From Labia minor (lineage: Eukaryota; Arthropoda; Insecta; Dermaptera; Spongiphoridae): a stretch of 64,000 bases of DNA. A program made the translations under genes and the position numbers. Each line of letters begins with the position of its first letter. Within the stretch, counting starts at the first letter, position 1. This document shows positions 14,976-28,679 of this stretch, piece after piece. The notes below the pieces were generated by a model. The model was not told the origin of the DNA and searched no databases. It saw nothing but the letters and a program-made list of their open reading frames with translations. Location of the stretch: NCBI GenBank assembly GCA_963082975.1, contig OY720344.1, positions 27,935,172-27,999,171 of the forward strand, given 5' to 3'.

Positions 14976-16570
14976 CAGCGATTTCCAAACTGTATGTTAC
15001 TCCGCCTCTCTTAAATGTATATAAAAGTTTTGCGACTCCCCTCTAAAGAAAAAACTAATATAACAATTTCTAAACATAAATATAATTTTATTTTAGTACA
15101 AAAACAAAAAAATAATTAAAGAATAATTTTATTTAATGAGATGGATACGCTTGTTTGTTAGCACAAAGTTAATCAAATCTGGGTGAGATTGATGAGATTG
15201 TCACTAGTAGCTCTTTTTTTATTTCTATAACTAAACGGGATCTATACTTCGACTTCATTGCAGCTAATGCAGAAAATCCAGCTTGCAGCAGGACTTTTGT
15301 CGATTAATTGTTCCTTTTCCATTATTGTCAATTCGAATTAATCTTTTTTCTTGATAAACAGATTCTGTACCCATTTAATTACTGCTTGAACACTGGTTTT
15401 GTGGCCTGGCGCAAACGAGAAATTAATTGGTCACAAAGATCTTCAGATATGTCATCAACTGTATTATCACCAAGTGGTATTTGCCGCAGTTGTTTTGCAT
15501 AAGATTCGCCAATAGATAGATCTATCTATCTCTGTGGCTCTACGGAACTCGAAAGTTCTTGGCCGCAGCAACCACACTTCTCCAAGTGTCCCTATTCTGA
15601 GCCACAACCCTCCAATCCCTATCCTCTCCCATTTCTCTCACGTCCCTTCCTACATTATCCACCCACCGCGTCCTTGGTCTTCCACTCGGACTCCCCCCCC
15701 CCCAATATATTTTTGGCCATTCTTTCCTCTCCCATTCTAGCTTCGTGCCCTGCCCATCTCGACCTTTTGGATTTTAAAATTCTAACTATATCTGGAGATG
15801 CATAGAGGTCATGCAATTCCTCGTTATGCAGTCTCCGCCATTAACCTCATCTTTCTTTGGCCCATAAATGCTTCGAAGAATCGTATTCTCAAATACTCCA
15901 ATACTATTTTGGTCTTCTAATATAATACAACCGGTAAAATAATTGTTTTATATATTTTAATTTTTATCCCCTTTGATAATAATTTTGACGCGATAAGCCC
16001 CTTTATGGCATGATAACAGGCGCTTCCCGATTGTAACCTCGCTTTAAAATCTTATTGAATATTATTATCTTTCGTTATTACCTAACCTAAGTATTTAAAT
16101 TTTTCTACATTTTCAAATTCTATATCTTGTATGTTAAGACTTTGTGTGTTAATGTTATTCCTTTCTTTTACTTTGTCTCTTAGTACTATTAATTTCCAGC
16201 CCCACTTCTTTCCTGCTTCGATTAATTTTTCTATGCTATCTTTAAATACCATTGCCGAATCTCCTATTATATTTAAGTCGTCTGCGTAACCTAATACTTG
16301 AATTTTTTTGTTTAATTCTATTCCGTTTGATTTTTTCCCAATTTGTCTAATTACATATTTCGGAACTAAATTAAATAAAATTGGTGATAATGCGTCTCCT
16401 TGTTTTAACCCATTCCGAATTTCGAAAGTTTTTGATAGTTGATTCCCGCATCTTACTATTCCTTTACTTCCTACAAGACAAATTTGAATCATACGTACTG
16501 AAATATATTTTTCTTAAAATCGTCATACCTCCCTTTGCAGTAGTCCGCGCCTCCCGTTTGGAAATCGCTG
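14976..16570 (-). mobile_element. hAT transposon remnant hosting a nested LINE
   Basis: Left end CAGCGATTTCCAAACTGTAT and right end (reverse complement) CAGCGATTTCCAAACGGGAG form matching termini. Inside, on the minus strand, are AKQLRQIPLGDNTVDDISED and QLISRLRQA (hAT catalytic-domain start) at 15500-15390. After a deletion comes the C-terminus near 15295-15135, including KSKYRSRL, VTISSISPRF and ANKQAYPSH-stop, typical of ZBED5/SCAND3-like hAT transposases. A LINE (15520-16495) sits inside, so the hAT arrived first. Flanking 8-mers no longer match well. Confidence 0.75.
15517..16495 (-). mobile_element. LINE (non-LTR retrotransposon), 5'-truncated, nested in hAT
   Basis: The minus-strand frame 16492-16082 carries reverse transcriptase motifs: RNGLKQGDALSPILFNLVP (with GDALSP) and VLGYADDLNIIGDS (catalytic YADD), then VEKFKYLG. 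Further towards the 3' end broken frames give GRPRTRWVDNVGRDVREMG and WRSVVAAAKNF, the C-terminal block common in insect endonuclease-reverse transcriptase LINEs. The 3' end is a GATA-type tail at about 15515-15535. The endonuclease half is absent, a usual 5' truncation. The family (RTE/CR1/Jockey group) is not settled. Confidence 0.82.
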
Positions 16571-16604
16571 GATTAGACGATTGTTAACCATGATAAGCCA
16601 GGTC

Positions 16605-16805
16605 GGTCTGACGGGTTGCCGAGTGGATGGAGTGTATAGGAGGGATTTTTATTAGTGAATCGATAGGATTTTTTAAGGTTTAGGACGCGACTCTCTTCCT
16701 CAAATGAAGACGAGGAAAAATCGTGACTTGTGTGGGCAGGGTTGCATCCCTGAGGACCATATCTATCGGGATCATAGTGAATGTCCACCCGCTACTCCTG
16801 TATAT
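16605..16805 (+). repeat. Possible tRNA-derived SINE
   Basis: GGGTTGCCGAGTGGATGG resembles a Pol III A box of a Leu/Ser-type tRNA, and AGGGTTGCATCCCTG resembles a B box. It is unusually GC-rich for this window and ends in a TATA-type tail. The A-to-B spacing (about 130 bases) is much longer than normal, so this may be rearranged or not a SINE. Confidence 0.35.
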
Positions 16806-17239
16806 ATAATTATTTCTTTACAATTTCATGCTAAATTTTATTTATTTATGTTAAAGTTATATACATATAAATATATTATTTTGTACTTCCCGTCTTAGAA
16901 TTAACGCCGACTTGACGTATAAAATTATAATTAATTAATTTCCGATTTTTTACTATCTTGCGATTATTGGACTATACGCTTTTGGGGGGCGATAAGTTAT
17001 TTTTGGGGAGCGAAATCATTTTCAACTCTAAAAAAAAGGTAAGATGGTTTTGCAATCAGACTTTTAAACATTTCCGCTTTTTTCAATTTTTTTTAATATG
17101 GTTCTAAAAAAAAGGTAAGATGATTTTGCCAAGTGTACCTACCTTATATTAGGGATTATCATGCAATTTTTATGTGTTAAAATTTATAGGGGGGCGAATT
17201 ATGAAGCCGGCGTTTGGTCCAAAAAGGTTGAGAAACTCT

Positions 17240-17565
17240 ACTCTAAAGTGACCGTAAAAATTAAGATATGTTTGATAGTTTTTCACATGATTAAAAATTG
17301 TATAAAATAGATATTATATAGCTTGATTGAATCGCTGAAAGTACCGGAATTAATTTTTTAATACTGCAAATCCCGCGCCAGCACGTGACATAGTTCCATC
17401 AACAAAGAGCCAAACACGCGCTGGTTTAATAAATATTATTTATTAATTTTAATTTATAATTTAATTAATTAAATTTAAGTTAAATATAATATATGTTATT
17501 TAATCCAATTCCAATTGCGGGATAGTCGAGTGGAGACGCTCCAGCTTATTTTACTTTTATTAACA
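17240..17565 (-). repeat. Dispersed repeat B, copy 2 (inverted relative to copy 1)
   Basis: The reverse complement matches 8009-8330 over about 320 bases, including CTCCACTCGACTATCCCGCA, GAGCCAAACACGCGCTGG (reverse form in copy 1) and AACTATCAAACATATC. The two copies differ at many positions but keep the same boundary at the AGCTTAT/ATAAGCT junction, which may be the true end of the element. Confidence 0.7.
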
Positions 17566-17799
17566 AAATGAAAACATTAGTTTTGCAAAATTAAAAATAT
17601 TCAACGAATATACTTAAGAAATATTTTGGAAATTTGCCATTAAAGCCCTCATAAGATTTTTTATAATTTATTAAAAGATTTCCTTTCAAAACTTTTACGA
17701 TTATAAAATATTTATCACGAATATATTTATTAAAACTTTTGTGGTTTTTACATTTATTAAATAATATAATATTTATTTATAATAATATGCTTGCGTAGC

Positions 17800-18225
17800 A
17801 TAAAGACCTTAAAATAGCTTCTGCTATGCTCCAGGAAATTTGGGACCTATTAAGGTCTTGGCTTGAGAAATGGAGGATAGCAGTGAACGAGGACAAATCA
17901 GCGTACCTGACTTTTACTTTAAATCGATAAACCTGCCTAGACGTTAAATTAGACAAACCCATCCCAATGAAAAAAACAGTTAAATATCTCGGTATGCATC
18001 TTGATAGACGCCTAACCTGGGAGATGCACATTAAGACAAAAAAGAAACAACTGAGACTCAAACTAAGCAAATTGTATTGGCTGCTCCGACAAAAATCCCA
18101 ACTGACTATGGACAACAAATTACTAATTTACAAAATTATCTTGAAGCCTATCTGGACCTACGGCATTCAGATGTGGGGGACCGCTAACAAATCCAAAAGA
18201 GCAAATTCAGCGATTTCAAAATAAA
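17800..18225 (+). mobile_element. Jockey-like LINE reverse transcriptase fragment
   Basis: The + strand reads DLKIASAMLQEIWDLLRSWL, EKWRIAVNEDKSAYLTF, then after a stop VKYLGMHLDRRLTWEMHIK, KLYWLLRQKSQLTMDNKLLI and LKPIWTYGIQMWGTA. The order matches the region after the YADD motif in Jockey-clade reverse transcriptases (KTKYM.F, YLG..LD..LTW..HI, LL.Y...LKPIWTYGIQLWG.A). It ends at a CT repeat (18222-18247). Endonuclease, early reverse transcriptase motifs and gag-like ORF are missing. Confidence 0.85.
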
Positions 18226-18689
18226 GTCTCTCTCTCTCTCTCTCTCCCAAGGCTAATTATCCTTCCCGACTTAATATAATCTGATTTGAATTATTTTATT
18301 TTATTTTGTTTTATCTTGTTTTGTTGTTTTATTATTATTTATTATTTTTTGTTTTCTATTTTGTTTTTCTTTGTTCTAATTGGAACTATACCATGTATTA
18401 TTGCCTTTGGGCAAGTGGATGTCAAAAAAATATTTATAATAACATTTATAATTATTATTATTATACTCTCGCCTCAAAAGAAATAGTATACCAGACCTAG
18501 CAACAAGATTTGACGACAAGATATGAGAATGGTACCACTGGGGACACATCTCAGCTAATTTATTCCCTCTGATGTAAATCTGAAATCAAATTAGATTATT
18601 GTTTCTGCAGAAACAGATTGCTAAGTCGCAGGATAGAAAAGGAAAAAAAAAAAAAAAATTATTATTATTATTATTATTTAAATTAAATT

Positions 18690-18862
18690 ATTAACATCAC
18701 ATATTTGTATAATTTTTTTATTTAGTTAAATAAACGTATGTTTCGACTGCTTCTCTGCAGTGGTTATCAAGTACCGTACGCTTGCCCCGACTCAAGCGGA
18801 CTGAAAAAACGAAACGTTGTATGTTTATTACTAAATAAATTATACAAATATGTAATGTTTTA
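18690..18862. repeat. Foldback (inverted-repeat) element next to Tc1
   Basis: Left arm about 18690-18745 and right arm about 18808-18862 are near-complementary (arms about 50 bases; shared ACATATTTGTATAATTTATT-like block and GTTTCG at the inner ends). The loop is GC-rich. It lies only 37 bases from the end of the Tc1 element at 18900. Confidence 0.6.
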
Positions 18863-20012
18863 ATAAAAATCCCTTTAATAATTATAAAATGTATATATAC
18901 ACTGCCCCGCAAAAAAGTGACGCATCTGAAAAATTTCAATTTTTTCTCCTTCGTTCTTGTTTTTATACTTTAAATCTTATTTATATTAAAATTTATCTAA
19001 ATACTGATAATTTGTAATAGCTTTATAAAGAAAATAACATTATTTAAATTAAAAAATAAATTTATTAAAAAAAAAATACATTTGTTGCATAAAACGAAAA
19101 TTAATATTTTTCAATTTTTTTTTTAAATTAAAACTTTTAATATCGAGTATTGCCACTTCTTGCTCTTATTACTTCCTCTAATCTTCTTGGCATACTCTTG
19201 ATTAAGTTTGCCACCACCTCCTGCGGTATATCTTCCCAAGGTTCCACTAAAGCAATTCTTAACTCCAGCAAGGTGGTAGGTGGGCTAATTTTTCTTTTTC
19301 TGCGCCTTTAGAGCTCATCCCAAACGTGTTCGATTGGATTTAAATCTAGACTTTGTGCGGGGCAGTTGAATGTTAGTATCCCGACTTCCTTCAATTAGCC
19401 AGTGGTAATCCTGGCTGTATGAGGCTGAGCATTATCATGCATAAACAGGAAATTTTCGTCATTAAAGTGAGCATATGACACAACATAATGTTCCAAAATA
19501 TCATTACAATATGTTTGGGCATTTAGCGTTACATTAGAGAAAAGATAAAGATCTGTCTTTGCCTCTAAAGATATACCACCCCATACCATCACTGATCCTC
19601 CTCCAAACTGAACACTATTGGCCATGTTACATTGTGCGTAACGTTCGCTGAGTCTACTGTAAACAAAAAGACGGCCATCTGGTCCAAATAAATTGAATCT
19701 GGACTCATCTGATAACAAAATGTTTTTCCAGTGAGTCTCTGTCCAGTGGCTGTATTTTTTGGCAAAGGGCTCTTCTTCTAACTGAAACATTTCTCACTGT
19801 ACGGAGGGTCTGAGCGATCTTTGGAGCAGTTGCGTTGCGATTGCGCAACGAATTTATGACAATAAATCGGTCATCAATCGGTTTTATTGTTCTCGGGAGG
19901 CCTGATCCTTGTCTTTTGGAATAACTACCAGTCGCTCGATCTTTTGATAGCTCTACGGACGGTGGCTTCATGCAAACCTAGAGTGCGAGCCGCAAAGAGT
20001 ATACTTTTTCCA

Positions 20013-21331
20013 TCATCCACTTGTTCTGGTGTAATCATTATTTTTTATTTCAACTTTTGGCTTTCTAGGATCATACAGATCACCCGCCATATTAAAGGAG
20101 GCGATAGTCGGATCCAATTCCTTATCTCGGCACATCTTCAAAAACATATACTTCGCCAGATGCGAAGGAAAATACTTCTTTCTCCTCGCACCTCCTGGTA
20201 TTATTGCCTTTGCAGCCCTCCAACTAGCCTCTATGTTATTGGTATGAGCACCTTTTGTAAAAAATTAGGTTAAGTTAGGTTATGTTGTACCTGATTCTGG
20301 ATCCTTAAAAGTGAATGAATGATTCACTTTTAGATGTTTGAATCCTTCATCTTCAAGGCAATCATAGGCTTTCCAATAGTCGGAAACAATGATTGTGCCC
20401 GGTTCAATCCATTGTTTTATAATTGGAAGCAGTGTGTTCTTGTCCCCCTCTGTTTGACTGGAACCATAAAAACACGACCAGTTCCTTCCTCGTAACCACC
20501 AAAAACCCATTGGCCTTTAAAAAATAATAGATAAGTCCCAAAAAATAATAAAAAATTATATGTATTTTCAAAAACACCTTCAACTCTTTTGCCTCGATTG
20601 TACTTCCTTTTGCCAAATTTGGATTCGTCAATTTGGACTGTCACACCATTGCCGCCAATCTTTTCTCCTTTTTTGACCATGCCGTCAAAAACAACTTCTC
20701 TGCAAAATGACGCCCAATCAACATATGTCCTACGACTCATACTTGTGTCTTCAATTGATATTTGGATTCTAATGACAAACAAAGGCACGTTATATACCCA
20801 AAAATTGACGAATCCCAAAATTTGAAAAAGGCTCAAATGTGACCTTTCAAAAATTGTGCCGGTTCTGATCGATATCTTGGTGTTACATTGTTTGGTGGCT
20901 TGTTTCCTACACGAAACCTTTGCCCGACACCGCCATGAATAGCCATCGCTAAAAAAACAAAAAATTAATATAATTTAATATAACAGCTTAACCTAACCTA
21001 ATTAGATAAACCTAATCATACCAAATACCTTTTGCCGTGTGACTAGCGGGCTACCGCCCGCCATGCCCCTTACCTAACCTAACTAAACCTAACCTAAAAA
21101 ACCTAATCTAACTAAACCTAACCTAACTAAACCTAACCTAAAAAAGTGAAATAATAAAGAAAAGAATACTTACACTTTTGTTGTATCACTTATTAATTTA
21201 AGTGGGCCATCACATTTGGGACACTTGTATGTCGGTTCAGTTGGTATTAATTGCCAATCTTGCAACTGTTGAACCAAATTATCACTATTGCAAATCATAT
21301 GAATTTTCACTAAATTAAGTGTTTCCGCCAT
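20013..21331 (-). CDS. Merlin (IS1595-like) transposase with introns, one frameshift
   Basis: DDE transposase of the Merlin superfamily, related to bacterial ISXO2/IS1595. Exons with GT/AG sites: 21331-21174, 20948-20579 (or 20578), 20514-20291, 20251-20013. The N-terminal zinc ribbon has YKCPKCDGPLKL and, across the first splice, VDGYSWRCRAK; then come ISIRTGTIFERSHLSL, VDWASFCREV, IDESKFGKRKYNRGKR (first Asp), WVFGGYEEGTGRVFM, TIIVSDYWKAYDCLEDEGF (second Asp), and DPESG joined to AHTNNIEASWRAAKA (catalytic Glu). All three catalytic acids survive. One apparent 1-base frameshift lies in exon 3 between VPVK and EGDKNTLLPII. The frame ends inside the surrounding Tc1 ORF (stop at 20013), so its natural 3' end may be lost. 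Introns 1 and 3 contain CCTAA-type tracts. Merlin terminal repeats were not found. Confidence 0.82.
20984..21143. repeat. CCTAA/TTAGG-like degenerate telomeric tract
   Basis: Many AACCTAA units mixed with ACTAAACCTAA (20985-21025 and 21070-21142) fill intron 1 of the Merlin transposase. A short related AACCTAACTTAACCTAA block is in its 39-base intron 3 (20252-20290). The unit resembles the arthropod telomere repeat TTAGG on the complementary strand, but it is irregular. Confidence 0.75.
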
Positions 21332-21539
21332 GTTCCGCGCTTCAGACTGACTCAAACAGGAAAGGGATATGTTTTATATTTTTATATCAATCAAAAAACA
21401 CGTGTTAGAAAAAAGGCCCGTAAAGTAAAATTTAGCCTTTTAATATAAATAAGATTTAAAGTATAAAAAAAAGAACGAAGGGGAAAAATTGAAATTTTCT
21501 AGGTGCGTTACTTTTGTGCGGGCAATGTATATAATATAT

Positions 21540-22355
21540 AATAAAAAATATTTTGAATTTTTAAAGTTCTTTATTCATATTTTTTTTTTATTTTGCACAT
21601 CTTCATCTTCAACACAATATAAATAATAAAAAAAATAACATTAATATTTTGATTACTACAAAAATATTTTAATTCAATTCTAATACTTCATTATCACATT
21701 TGATTGCTTATCGATATTTGGACCTATATAGAAATTACTATTTACTTGTTTATAAATATATTTATTTATTTATAAATATAATTATAAAAATAGGGATATT
21801 TTTTAGGATTTTGAAATTATAAATATGTCTAAAGGCAAGTATTTTTTTTAGTATTGTTACATCTCTATTACGCAAATAATTTTAATAAAATTTAATCAAT
21901 GAAAATAAAAGGTATTTGTAAATATATGTTTGTTAACTTTATTTTAAATAAATATTATACCATGGCACTCAAAGATTTTTATATATTTTTATATATTAAA
22001 TTTTTATATTTGCAAGGTTGGCAAAATATAATATATATATATATCACAATAATGTTTTATTTAAAAAAAAAAATAAATATATAATATATATATATATAAA
22101 TATATAAGTAAATTTTTATATAAAAGTTGAATATACTATAATAATAGATAATAATAATTTTATGAAAGTAGATATAGAGATTTCGTTATGAAAAAACGAA
22201 ATATATACTAATGATATTATAGATTGGTAAATTATCTTAAGAGCTAAAAAAATCCATTGTATATTATACTTCATTTTCTCCAATTTAAGTTAAGAATATG
22301 GAATTCCTTAATCATTGTTAACAATAATTTCATATTTCAAAATATTTATTAATTT
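21540..22355. other. AT-rich spacer, no gene seen
   Basis: Between the Tc1 element and the 3' end of the SNM1-like gene. It contains only TA-rich low-complexity sequence and short AT-driven frames. Confidence 0.6.
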
Positions 22356-25140
22356 TCAATTAGGAATTTTATCAGAATGTAATATCGAAAAACAATTTTT
22401 TGGTTTTAAATAATTATAAAATCTCTGAATATCTTCATGTTTTGAATGATTTGAATAAGGAAGTTTTAATAAACTTATTTTTGAACTTAAAGTCCATATT
22501 TCATCTTTTGGATTTTCGATTTCTATAACTAATAAAGATGAAAATCTTTTAAATTTATTAAGATATTTAGTTAGACAATTCCTGTTTAGTTGTAATTCCG
22601 AAATAATATGTAATTGTGCGGAAGATGCCTCTTCTGTTAACATTGAATTGAGTTTATTATTTTCGATTAATTTCAAAGTATGACGATAAACCTTATAAGC
22701 CCACACTTTAGTTTTTAACAAATCTGCAATGGTTGTCCAAAGAGAAATTCCACAAAGAGGCGGAATATAAATGACAATTAAAATATCTTTTTTTTGTTTT
22801 ATATATTTTTTTATTAATTTTTGCACTCGTTCAATATCGTTAAAAACATAAGGATTCTGATAGTTTCTTGTATCAAGATATAAATCAAAATTTTCAGAAA
22901 TATTCCAAAATTCACTAATCTCTTCCATCATAAAATTGAATTGAGCTGGTCCTGAATATAAATAGGAATGTTGATTTTTAAATTCAACAAGAAACATAAC
23001 AGAACCTTGACAATAATTTGAATCCAAAACAGTTACTTTTTTATTATTAATTTTATGACTAGTACCAATAGCAAGTACACTTAATTTATTTTCTGGTAAA
23101 TGATATAATGATTTTAGTATCTTTGCCGTAAATTCACTACAATAAATTATTTTATTAAAAGTTGTGAAATTCAACTCATCTAGAATGAAAGGATTATAAT
23201 GAGTTAAAAAAAATGCCTTAGCTGTTTTATGCTGAAATGAATCAAATGAAAAATCTTTTATTATACTATTGGCATTTTGTAACCAGTCAATTGAGGAATT
23301 AGAAAAAGAAAAGTTTCTATTTAGGTGTATATTTTGTTCAGAATCTTTTTTTAACTTAATCCGTTCTGGAATACTTTGTTCGTTTGAATCTGAATCAATA
23401 TTAATAGAAAATTTCTTCTTATTATTATTATCAATTATATTAATTGAAGAATTAGTTTCTTCAGTAATATTTTCAAAATCTATACAGTTTGTAAGAAGAG
23501 ATGGACTAGGACTATAAATATAATCAGATTCTGTCAAAAATACTTCTTCATTAATATTATTTCGACAAAGCAATTTTCTAGTGAACTCTTGATTTTTATT
23601 GTGTTTACAAGCTTCTTCAAGACGTTTTTCACTTAGAAATTGATTAATTTTTATTTCTTCAGATTCCTTAACAGCACAATTAAATAAATTTATATCTGTT
23701 TCAGTCACATAAATTTGATTAACTTTAAATTGCCAAGTTATAGGTGCTGGTTTTAATTTAAGCGTTATGATTAAATTAAGGGTAAATTTACATTTACAAA
23801 TTTCTAAAATAATGAAATCGAATCCTTTATTCTGTTCAGTACACTTTAAAGAAATATTTTCCCATCCGGTACTTGACATTTTGGCATATAATTTAACTTT
23901 ATTGATTATATTTTTATTGGCGTTATTTTTAAAATTAATAGAAGGTTCGCATTCATTTTTACATTCAATATTTATTAATTTGAAGAAATCATTTTTTATT
24001 TTAGGATTTATTTCTGTTAATGATTCATTTTGTCGAGATGGTGTTAGATTTTGAGGTCGATATTCAACACTTTGAGTACTTGCAAAATCATCCATCATAT
24101 CTTTATTAAATTCATTATATTGCGATATTGAATCATCAAAACATATTCCAGGGTTTAAAGAAATTTTTTTATTATTTTTTTCATAATGTGTTGAATTATT
24201 AATTCTTTTATTGGAATTTCTATTTTTATGTTCTGAATTACAAATGGAAGAAATGGAATTTCCATTTTTTGTTGAATTTTCATTTATTTTATCATGATTA
24301 TAGGTTTTACTTGTTTTTGGACAATTGTATAAAGTTAAAGAACTATTTCTTGAATCTGCATCCGAATTATCTAAAATGATTAGCGATGTAGAAGATGACG
24401 ATTTTGTTTTTGATTTTGCCATTATTTTATCGCTCGAATTAGATGTATTATTATCATTATCAACTGTTTTAAATTTAGTTAATTCTTCATATTTAGAGGA
24501 TGTAACTTCTGCTCTTTCTAAATTAGTATTTAATAAATACGATTCAATTTTGTTAAAACTTGTATCATAATTATTGTTTTTTACTTTATGGTTTTCATTT
24601 TCCAAATGATGAAAATAATGAGGATTATCTTTAAATTGTCCATTTCTAAATTGAGCTAACCACTGATGTCCAAATTCTGTATAATGATCTGGATTTGTTG
24701 AAAAACAAACATCTTTATGTACACATTCTAAAAAGTAATAATTAATATTATTGAATATATATATATATACAAACTTAAATAAAAATAAGCAAACCTGGTA
24801 ATGAAAAAATATCAATTTTACAATTTTGAACATGCAATTCGGGTTGTGTAAAAATATCAAGTGCTGCTTGACAGTTCGTACAATAATTTTTTTCTTTATT
24901 TTTAATTCTTCCTTTATTATAAAAAATTATATCACTATCTTTTTCTATATTTTTTATGTAATTAGCAATATTTTCTGAACTTTCATTTCTATTTTCATTA
25001 TTTATTGATTCATTTTTTAAATAGGTGTTTTGTTGAGTAATTTTTTCCGTTCTGGACAGAGAAAATGAACAATTTATATTCCTATATTTTATAATATTTT
25101 TTACTTGTATTACTGGTATTATATCATCATCATCACTCAT
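22356..25140 (-). CDS. SNM1/DCLRE1A-like protein with degenerate nuclease active site
   Basis: Two exons: 25140-24795 and 24727-22356, joined in phase (SLP/E/CVHKDVCF), about 905 residues. Residues 87-107 form a UBZ4-like zinc finger (C87, C90, H103, C107), the ubiquitin/PCNA-linked recruiting domain of SNM1A. A long Asn/Ser/Lys-rich stretch follows. From about residue 605 comes an SNM1-type metallo-beta-lactamase plus beta-CASP fold: FDSFQHKTAKAFFLTHY, IIYCSEFTAKIL, VTVLDSNYCQGSVMF, LYSGPAQF, FDLYLDTRNY, and near the end LPYSNHSKHEDIQRFYNYL, lining up with human SNM1A throughout. Metal ligands are largely lost: HxHxDH has become HYNPFI, ANHCPG has become SNYCQG, and the GDFR Asp is replaced by Pro. 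The Asp of LDT and the late His remain. The frame is long and uninterrupted, so the gene is probably a functional non-nuclease (scaffold) rather than a pseudogene. An AG splice site just before the ATG suggests a 5' UTR intron. Confidence 0.85.
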
Positions 25141-25149
25141 GGCATCTAA

Positions 25150-26220
25150 AAAAATAAATTTTTAAAAGTTAATTAAAAATAAATAAATTAAAATAAGTAA
25201 AATTTAAATAACGTTTTAAAAATAAAATAATAAATTAAAATTAAATTAGATAATAAAAGAGTCGGGTTACTAAAGAGCTGAAACCATCATAGGTTTATTC
25301 TTTTTTAAAAAAAATAAAATTCATTTAATTTAAAAAAAAAACATTTTCATGAAGAGTTCATTTATATAGTAATGATTATTTTTTTTTTGGGATGATATCA
25401 AATCTTTTAAAGTCTCTTTACTAATAATTTAATATTAGATACTTAAAGTTGTGAATTATATTATAAATTATAATATATCTAATTTATGAGAATTTTATAG
25501 TTCTTCTTAAAATAAAAATTTAACACAATTATTGGTTTTCCCATATTTATTTGGTTAATTATTTTAATATTTCAAATATTATTTTTACTTTGAAAAACTA
25601 TCTAAAATTAACTAATAATAATTTCATTTTTCATATAGTTTAGAAATATATTTTTTTTTTAAATAAAATATCTGTACATACCATATTATTTTCATCTTTC
25701 CAACATCAAAAAATGAAACAAATAATAGAAATAAAAGCCGTTGTGACTTGAATGACAGTTTGTTGTAAATGTCAAATCTATTGAAAATGTCAAAAGTTGG
25801 TTATGTATATACATAATTATTCCATGTGTTCATATTAATAATAAATAAAAATAAAAAAAAATATAATTATTTTTATATTTGTGATTTAAAATTATTCTTT
25901 AAATTATATTTAAGTACAAATTAAATATTTATAAAATTTAAATAATTAAATTAATAAATTAAATATTATTTTTTTATATCTTATCTATTTTATCTATTAA
26001 AATAATATATTATATAAATTAAATTTTAATTAATAATAAGAAATTGATCATTTTTATTTTTAAACTTTTTTTTATTTTTGAATTTTTATTTATTCCTGTA
26101 TTTAAAATTTTAATTTTTCAATTTAAAATAAACAAAAATCATTGATGTGATGGATAAAAGATTTTTAAATATATATATTTGTTCGGTTAGGTTTTCGTGA
26201 ACGTTTTTATTATTATGAAA
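25150..26220. other. AT-rich upstream region of the SNM1-like gene
   Basis: Probable promoter and 5' UTR side of the minus-strand gene. Poly-A/T and TA-rich sequence; no coding homology recognised. Confidence 0.55.
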
Positions 26221-26221
26221 A

Positions 26222-26668
26222 TTTATTTCTGGATTATATTTTCACGTTTAATTGTGAAATTTGAGTCTCGACGTTTCGGTTCCCATTTTGGTGCCATTTT
26301 CAAGAGAATTTATTTATGAGGGAATTTTTTGGGGGATTCTAGGAAGTAGTTTTTTTTTCTCGTCTGTGTGACCAAGAGTCGATGTTGGGATTTTGGGTTG
26401 AATGGGTAGAAGACATTGGACTAATTATGTTCCGAAGCCCCTAAGAATTCTTGGCACTGACTCACCACTGATACTCGTCTGCTTTTGACGACTGCTCGAC
26501 CTGAAAAGGTAGATCCCAAAGGGTCGGACTTCAGTCGACCTCGGACTCTGGGTTTTAGTCTGTGTCCAAAAAAAGTTCCTTCCTAACGCCAAAATGATCG
26601 CTGAAACGTTGAGTCTCTAATCTCACAATTAAATGTGAAAATAATCCAGAAATAATTTCTCACAATAT
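26222..26668. mobile_element. Inverted-repeat element, unclassified MITE
   Basis: Left arm from about 26225 (ATTTCTGGATTATATTTTCA, AATTGTGA, GAGTCTC) is repeated in inverse near 26605-26665 (GAGTCTC, TCACAATTAA, TGAAAATAATCCAGAAATAA). Arms are about 55-60 bases and the total about 445 bases. The inner arm edges carry ACGTTTCGG and TGAAACGTT. The interior is relatively GC-rich with GACCTGAAAAGGTAG and TCGACCTCGG motifs. No ORF. Confidence 0.65.
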
Positions 26669-26680
26669 ATTCCTTTACTG

Positions 26681-26961
26681 CAGTAATTTCGAAAGTGGGC
26701 GCTCCATGGAGGCGGTGATGGCCACAGGTGCATTTAGGGAAAATTACTTGTATATTAATTTTCTATTCCGAGATCAATAAATAGATATATAAATTCACTG
26801 TTTCTAATTTACACCTTTATTTATAATATTTTGCAAATAGACACATTTATCTTTATGTTTGATTGTTTTTAAAATTAAAAAAAGTTAATTTTCCAAGGGG
26901 GAGCTGAGTAAAATTTTTTCTGGAAAGGGGGTGCTTGGCCAAATAGGTTTAGGAACCACTG
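26681..26961. mobile_element. hAT MITE with perfect 8-bp target duplication
   Basis: Left terminus CAGTAATTTCGAAAG; right terminus is the reverse complement of CAGTGGTTCCTAAAC. CTTTACTG occurs exactly on both sides (26673-26680 and 26962-26969). No transposase inside. Confidence 0.85.
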
Positions 26962-27414
26962 CTTTACTGGGTAATTTTTGGTATGTTTTGTATATATTCT
27001 CGAGATTTATATTTTAAGTCCGTTTGAGATTTAAGTGTTAGGTATTTATTTGTTATTATTTAGTTTCTTATTGAGTATATGATCTTGCTTATGAGATTTA
27101 TAAAGATTATAAGGTTAAACCGAGGGTATTTTCACTCACAATTTTAATTTTTGCCAAATCTCAAACGCTAATACCGATTATGACGTGATTATTGGTGTTA
27201 ATGGTACTTGGGACTATTAGGTGTTCATTCCAAAAATTATACAGCTTTATATATATTCTTGAAATAAGAACTATTAAAATTTACAAAAATTCAAAAACTC
27301 AACTTTATATGGCTTATGTGAAATTACATGTAAAACAAAAATAAATTGAAATGTTTAAATATTTTATTAGGTAAGTTTTAAGAATTAAAAGAGTGCATAA
27401 CTTAAATAATATAC

Positions 27415-27590
27415 TTACACAAATCTGGGTCTATTAATATTTCCCTCGTTCTTACTAAATTGTTTGGGGCTTCAATTTTCCCCAAAACCGAGTTCCACAC
27501 ATAAAAAAATATATTGTCACGTATAGGCCACTTCCACAACTTCCCGTTTTGTTTTATGGCCTTCACTTTCGGGACGTCATCTAACACTCA
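27415..27590 (-). other. Unassigned putative exon
   Basis: The minus-strand frame includes DVPKVKAIKQNGKLWKWPIR, FFYVWNSVLGKIEAPNNL and REILIDPDLC. It ends at a strong GTAAGT donor (about 27415). Composition is less AT-biased than the surroundings and reads like real protein, but I recognise no family and find no partner exon. It may be a host exon or part of an unknown transposon. Confidence 0.3.
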
Positions 27591-28679
27591 CTGTTAAGCC
27601 GGGGTCGCCTCGAACACAAAATCCGTCATATCACTCCTTCGACATAATTTTAGATAGACTTGAAAATAGTAAACAATGAGGTATATGTGAAAACATAAGC
27701 CTTAATATTAAATTTAAAGAATGTGCAAAAATTTAAAATTCTATATACTTGCAAAAATTGAAAAAGAAAACAAATTATGAATCTTTGAAATAAATATTAA
27801 ATAAATTTTTCTTGTGTTGATCTTCAAGATGGCGAACAAAACAAATCCTCCTTATACGATGGTTCGCTTATAGCTGTTAGACAAGCTTCATTTGGTCGTG
27901 TAGGTGGCTACCATCGCCCCCAATGCCTTTCTCACACCAAAAGCTTTAATTTTCGAGATATAGAAATCTCGCTATATCCCTCGGCTTTATCTTAGAAATT
28001 TTTTGCATGGCATATTAAGATTGAGAAAATTTAAAGATTTTATTCTTAAATTAGTGTTGTTATAGGAGAGACCCATCTAGCTTCATGAGGTTGCTTGTTT
28101 TGAAATGTAAATTACTGATCCAACTTACATCTTGTGGGTTGATAGAGTATTTTTGTAAAGATAATGAGTTTGCCTCTCCGGATCCAGTGATAATTAAGGC
28201 TAACCTTCTTTTACTTTTTACCGAAAAAATTGAATTGCATTTCATGATTTTACCTCTAACTAAGATCTTGATTTTAGTTTGTGGGCGCAAGAGAAGTCAT
28301 GGATAGTCGAAGTCAGGGAGACGAGACTGTTTTATATATATAATTTATTTACAACGTATATATTCAGAGGTCAGAGAAAAACGAACCAGGCGCGGAACGG
28401 GAACAGGCTAGATCCCTTTTTCCACTTCCCCTCGATGGGGAATCCCTCTGTTTTGGGAAGATCGTCCCTTACTCCCCGCTGCGGGTTACAAGCGCCAGAA
28501 GTTTATTAAAACAAACATATTTTATCATATGTAGAGCTACTGATCCACAGACTATCCGTATCAAACCAGGACACTTAATGTTATTTCTTGAAACATCGCC
28601 ACCATGCGGTATGCTCTATGTACTAATTGAAAAAAAATCGGGCTTGTGTGTGACCAATTAATTAAATTTGATTTAATTT

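Follow-up and report, generated by a model that had tools for sequence, protein, structure and literature searches.

The window, the whole 64,000-nucleotide stretch of the Labia minor contig analysed here, contains an SNM1A-like gene on the minus strand (25140 to 22356), which starts with an ATG at 25140 and is divided into two exons (Table 1). With the splice as read from the sequence, the frame is open over 905 codons and a stop, without an internal stop codon, and a stop-to-stop frame of 856 codons spans 22356-24926 on the minus strand. Across the splice junction, the protein reads ...HVQNCKIDIFSLP-E-CVHKDVCFSTNPDHYTEFGH..., which aligns with the UBZ-PBZ peptide of human SNM1A (peptide taken from PMC11199599). 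The coordinates and the open 905-codon splice agree with an earlier note on this DNA, which had described a long uninterrupted frame at 22356-25140 in two exons. The protein ends soon after the PYSNHS/LKP region.

Table 1. Coordinates of the SNM1A-like gene and its parts in the window, and of the SNM1-like proteins found in bacterial metagenome-assembled genomes (MAGs).
Feature	Position	Strand	Remarks
Exon 1	24795..25140	-	Starts at the ATG and ends at a phase-1 donor; encodes residues 1-115 plus the first base of codon 116
Intron, 67 nt, GT-AG, phase 1	24728..24794	-	Separates UBZ4 and PBZ fingers; predicted from sequence
Exon 2	22356..24727	-	Other two bases of codon 116, then through residue 905 to the stop
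UBZ4-type finger, C87-x2-C90-x12-H103-x3-C107	24820..24882	-	4/4 zinc ligands kept
PBZ-type finger, C117-x5-C123-x6-H130-x5-H136	24666..24725	-	4/4 zinc ligands kept; spacing as in human SNM1A
MBL/beta-CASP (SNM1 nuclease) domain	22359..23288	-	Residues ~596-905
Degenerate motif 2, HxHxDH to H625-Y-N627-P-F629-I630	23184..23201	-	1/4 ligands kept
Motif 3 His to Tyr687	23013..23015	-	Placed by alignment
Motif 4 Asp to Pro709 (GDFR to GPAQ)	22947..22949	-	Placed by alignment
Motif A Asp734, kept	22872..22874	-	Placed by alignment
5'-phosphate pocket Y...K (YSIGK in SNM1A) to P771...G775	22749..22763	-	Lys loss firm; Tyr loss alignment-dependent
Motif B His876, kept (PYSNHS)	22446..22448	-	Placed by alignment
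Pfam DRMBL match	22386..22652	-	Pfam
SNM1-like proteins	L001 5971-6840, L002 5057-5932, L003 5956-6855		Riflebacteria, Eisenbacteria, Coatesbacteria MAGs

Like human SNM1A (DCLRE1A), the predicted protein has a UBZ4 followed by a PBZ with identical PBZ spacing, a long linker and an MBL/beta-CASP domain with DRMBL, and the two also share the residues of motifs 1, A and B. The UBZ4-PBZ arrangement is an SNM1A feature (PMC11199599 and general background). Between the two proteins, 25 of 64 residues in this segment are identical (39%), with 3 gap positions. The earlier note had seen a remaining UBZ4-like finger, and all four of its ligands are indeed in place; to this can be added the adjoining complete PBZ (Cx5Cx6Hx5H), which went unnamed there. 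The Pfam PBZ model (PF10283) scored 16.3 bits, under its cut-off of 22.7; for the human SNM1A peptide, Pfam lists no PBZ at all. A PIP box of the form Qxx[ILMVA]xx[FYW][FYW] had no match across the 905 residues, a pattern that a degenerate version could escape.

Two stretches of the linker stood out by eye on the minus strand. At ~24350-24400, STSLIILDNSDADS resembles a SUMO-interaction motif and is followed by acidic residues; simple patterns for such motifs did not pick STSLIILDNSDADS. At ~23740-23815, the hydrophobic stretch FIILEICKCKFTLNLIITLKLKPA lies amid an otherwise polar linker, together with an in-frame GT...AG pair spanning 51 nt, which could be a short intron instead of coding sequence.

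Family identity and fold of the nuclease domain

When the C-terminal 324 residues were compared with PDB sequences using phmmer, human SNM1A (E-value 4.3e-24) scored ahead of Apollo (5.6e-14) and Artemis (0.0036), a ranking that rests on the human members in the PDB and on search scores rather than on a tree. The nuclease domain shares 28% identity with human SNM1A over 278 aligned positions. SNM1B/Apollo (DCLRE1B) has the same nuclease fold and 25% identity over 267 aligned positions, but it scores below SNM1A as a match to the window protein. The Pfam DRMBL model (PF07522), with a cut-off of 22 bits, scored 39.4 bits, and no Lactamase_B model was reported by Pfam for the window up to an E-value of 0.1. 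By sequence, SNM1A is the nearest of the three to this domain, ahead of Apollo and Artemis, and the protein is an SNM1A homologue and probably an orthologue. The earlier assignment to the SNM1 family, with an SNM1A-like MBL/beta-CASP domain, holds, as the phmmer and DRMBL scores are not those of a chance match. Considering that only one of the six metal ligands is left, we refer to it as a homologue and not as an SNM1A nuclease. Searching the 64-kb window with the spliced protein and the human SNM1A domain (tblastn, to an E-value of 1) revealed no second copy of the gene.

Relatives were also sought in larger sequence collections. Of 138 pattern matches in the genome_contigs scan, three were confirmed, all from bacterial MAGs. 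Their frames of 292-308 residues all score above the DRMBL cut-off, and two of the three also do so for Lactamase_B_2; unlike the window gene, all three retain the six zinc ligands intact. Such genes were scarce in their phyla (1/39, 1/47 and 1/1 genomes searched, the finding genome included each time), and horizontal transfer or binning contamination are possible origins. No relatives were confirmed in viral_contigs among 15, 25 and 101 pattern matches (queries: window domain, A1 and A2), and none were found in phages by tblastn. Animal relatives were found in none of the viral_contigs, phage and genome_contigs scans.

An AlphaFold model of the domain built from four sequences, the window protein and its three bacterial relatives, had a mean pLDDT of 53.6 and a pTM of 0.53; a single-sequence model was set aside (pLDDT 34). 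With the four-sequence model as query, Foldseek returned eight SNM1A entries first, then five Apollo and then eight Artemis entries, the SNM1A entries having a TM-score by query length of 0.66-0.69 and an rmsd of 6.7-7.9. As the model is of low quality and sequence also enters the Foldseek ranking, this backs the fold but proves no detail.

Conservation of the fold was further assessed over the 243 gap-free columns shared with five intact members, namely human SNM1A, human Apollo and the three bacterial proteins. At the 64 columns that are hydrophobic in all five, the window gene encodes a hydrophobic residue in 57 (p 4e-16). These columns and the DRMBL match, sequence signs accompanied by a low-confidence model, agree with the earlier view that the fold has been kept. 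Of the 42 columns that are invariant in the intact members, half (21) were kept and half (21) changed, and many of the changed ones are not ligands.

Loss of the catalytic site, probably under frame constraint

The zinc ligands of these nucleases are provided by motif 2 (H-x-H-x-D-H), the motif 3 His and the motif 4 Asp (PMC4678830), and in SNM1A they form metal site 1 (H732, H734, H793 and D815) and site 2 (D736 and H737) (PMC7607226). In the window protein, the corresponding positions read H625, N627, F629, I630, Y687 and P709 in all alignments, so that one ligand of six is kept. The earlier note had read HxHxDH as HYNPFI, the ANHCPG His as Tyr and the GDFR Asp as Pro, and had concluded that most nuclease metal ligands are lost; every one of these readings was reproduced, also in the alternative alignment A3. 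Nevertheless, the active site has not been wholly erased, as the motif-1 Asp, the motif-A Asp (D734) and the motif-B His (H876) are retained.

The phosphate-binding pocket, to which Y182, K186, T257, S258 and S274 belong in SNM1B (PMC4678830), is altered as well. Among the four pocket columns that are invariant in the five intact members, Y has become P, K has become G, T has become I, and S is kept. The change of Lys to Gly is also found in A3, and the Lys loss is seen in the phmmer alignment too; this loss is firm. The Tyr column holds Pro in three alignments, while A3 opens a gap and places a Tyr from a few residues earlier in it; the Thr position lies within a gappy stretch. Unlike human SNM1A, the window gene is without five of the six zinc ligands, the pocket Lys and a matched PIP box.

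The retained residues raise the question of a still active hydrolase, in which residues that stayed in place or moved, for example H625, D632, D734 and H876, would have formed a rebuilt metal site. The motif-1 Asp, H625, the motif-A Asp and the motif-B His are consistent with such a site. Against this, the five missing ligands include the motif-2 Asp that is essential to SNM1A, whose substitution by itself abolishes activity (PMC4678830), and the pocket Lys is gone as well. Substitutions in the SNM1B pocket lower its activity, with no significant effect on DNA binding (PMC8450094). We therefore regard a rebuilt hydrolase as very improbable.

Zinc ligands have been kept at eight of eight positions in the fingers versus one of six in the nuclease domain (Fisher p 0.003). 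Inside the nuclease domain, an excess of loss at the ligands themselves was not significant (1/6 versus 20/36 kept, p 0.18), and with zinc and phosphate pocket positions combined the counts were 2/10 versus 19/32 kept (p 0.07, Tyr counted as lost). Because the changes spread beyond the ligands, it is the fingers that differ cleanly from the nuclease domain; the ligands do not stand apart from the remainder of that domain in this way.

An assembly error or a wrong gene model could mask a canonical motif 2. Starting 8 nt past the codons for the retained LTH, a 13-nt out-of-frame stretch at 23178-23190 (minus strand) reads like codons for the missing F-H-S-D plus one extra base. Along the coding strand of the CDS this pattern is matched nowhere else, and it occurs twice in 128000 positions over both strands of the window, this stretch included, which corresponds to 0.0006 per 40 positions; the pattern was picked after being seen, and the stretch also resembles a splice-acceptor tract. 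One possible history is that indels offsetting each other's frameshift scrambled motif 2. However, motifs 3 and 4 are altered at separate places of an unbroken frame, and LTH and YCSEFT on either side of motif 2 are both in frame, at a spacing too short for an intron, which leaves an assembly or model error with a next to negligible probability. Inspection by eye led us to reject a hidden intron at motif 2 as well, since the conserved residues on its two sides lie too close together.

Decay of the gene was simulated in 200 runs, starting from the present sequence with point mutations only, an assumed kappa of 2 and the local AT-rich composition; ligand codons were treated as independent and as changing at the gene-wide rate. 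Random point mutations of the coding sequence were missense in 74% and nonsense in 7% of cases. At 0.005 substitutions per site, ~40% of the simulated genes were still open. Raising this to 0.02 left 3% of the 200 genes open, with a chance of 0.002 of even three of the six ligand codons having changed, and at 0.05 none of the 200 was open and the chance of five of six having changed was 1e-4. Indels, which the simulation leaves out, would add more breaks. As simulated stops arise long before five ligands are gone, constraint on the reading frame was probably still in force when the ligands disappeared. On this simulation we rejected neutral decay as the sole origin of the losses, and the earlier argument from the open frame to selection stands in this form: under the simulation used, neutral decay of an unconstrained gene fails to explain the loss.

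Codon-position composition also looks maintained. GC1, GC2 and GC3 were 0.309, 0.280 and 0.126, and in each of the three parts measured (N-terminus, linker, nuclease domain) GC3 was the lowest. On either side of the gene, the stretches 21501-22340 and 25161-28000, which may include other features, had a GC content of 0.238. Considering that ~40% of the simulated genes remained open at the lowest divergence above, neither the open frame nor the composition proves present-day constraint. This leaves room for early gene decay, in which catalysis was lost first under selection on the recruitment part and all constraint has since been lifted, so recently that stops have yet to arise. The changes at half of the invariant columns and the unmatched PIP box would fit such a history, whereas the composition and the intact finger ligands look like those of a maintained gene; we consider early decay unlikely, but with a real share of the probability. 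It would still include a pseudonuclease stage, because the ligand losses must precede the release from constraint.

A probable recruited pseudonuclease and its counterparts

The SNM1A architecture in the sequence (UBZ4, PBZ, long linker and MBL/beta-CASP domain) is intact, the two-metal site is dismantled and the pocket Lys is gone. With a probability of roughly two in three, we propose that this gene is a probable SNM1A orthologue whose product has turned into a pseudonuclease, a protein that is recruited but catalytically dead and that may act as a scaffold. In human cells, the PBZ, PIP and UBZ elements bring SNM1A to damage, and nuclease-inactive SNM1A still forms foci (PMC11199599). By the proposed route, the losses would have accumulated in a constrained reading frame, as the simulation suggests, while poly-ADP-ribose and ubiquitinated PCNA would still bring the protein to damaged or stalled replication sites. 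There, the inert nuclease domain could serve as a binding platform or an occupancy factor without cutting. As no PIP box was matched, the PCNA half of this recruitment idea is weakened. Also counting against the pseudonuclease proposal are the changes at half of the invariant columns, the non-significant excess of loss at the ligands inside the nuclease domain, the PBZ score under the Pfam cut-off and the poor quality of the structural model.

Alternatively, the protein might be a negative regulator. In competition with an active SNM1 enzyme for binding to ubiquitinated PCNA or PAR, it would hold resection back. Intact recruitment fingers beside a dead cutting site are what such a competitor would have, but it requires an active paralogue and the 64-kb window holds none; we judge this improbable.

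The nearest precedents for a pseudonuclease of this fold are the INTS9-INTS11 and CPSF100-CPSF73 pairs (PMC7980224). INTS9 and CPSF100 resemble the window protein in their MBL/beta-CASP fold, as far as the low-confidence model indicates, and in their degraded catalytic motifs, INTS9 having lost three of the four motif 2 ligands (PMC7980224). They differ in belonging to the RNA-processing branch, as do the beta-CASP pseudonucleases met in our literature search, and in the C-terminal domains that pair them with an active nuclease. By analogy, the proposed pseudonuclease might also partner with an active SNM1 enzyme.

A broader version of the pseudonuclease reading is that a whole animal lineage has made SNM1A a conserved beta-CASP pseudonuclease of the DNA branch, a non-cutting scaffold recruited to repair sites by PAR and ubiquitin. 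We put this forward tentatively, at somewhat less than even odds. If true, such a lineage-wide case would demonstrate selection for a role of SNM1A outside catalysis. A maintained SNM1A without its cutting site would represent a natural separation-of-function allele, and would imply that recruitment and scaffolding are selectable without exonuclease activity, which is testable in crosslink and double-strand-break repair. Among the matches listed in our literature search, whose coverage leaves out most subscription journals, no title or abstract opening reported an inactive SNM1A in insects. A survey of Drosophila pseudoenzymes (PMC12869072) does not contain 'Snm1' in its main text.

Trypsin-type, NXF and fn3_4 gene pieces are located near the SNM1A-like gene and, together with Tc1/mariner-like frames, suggest an insect or other arthropod host. 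Downstream of the gene, 15500-20974 contains frames that by eye look like reverse transcriptases and transposases; one stretch there, 19395-19793, had no Pfam match at an E-value of 0.01. The Tc1/mariner-like frames were likewise recognised by eye in the window.
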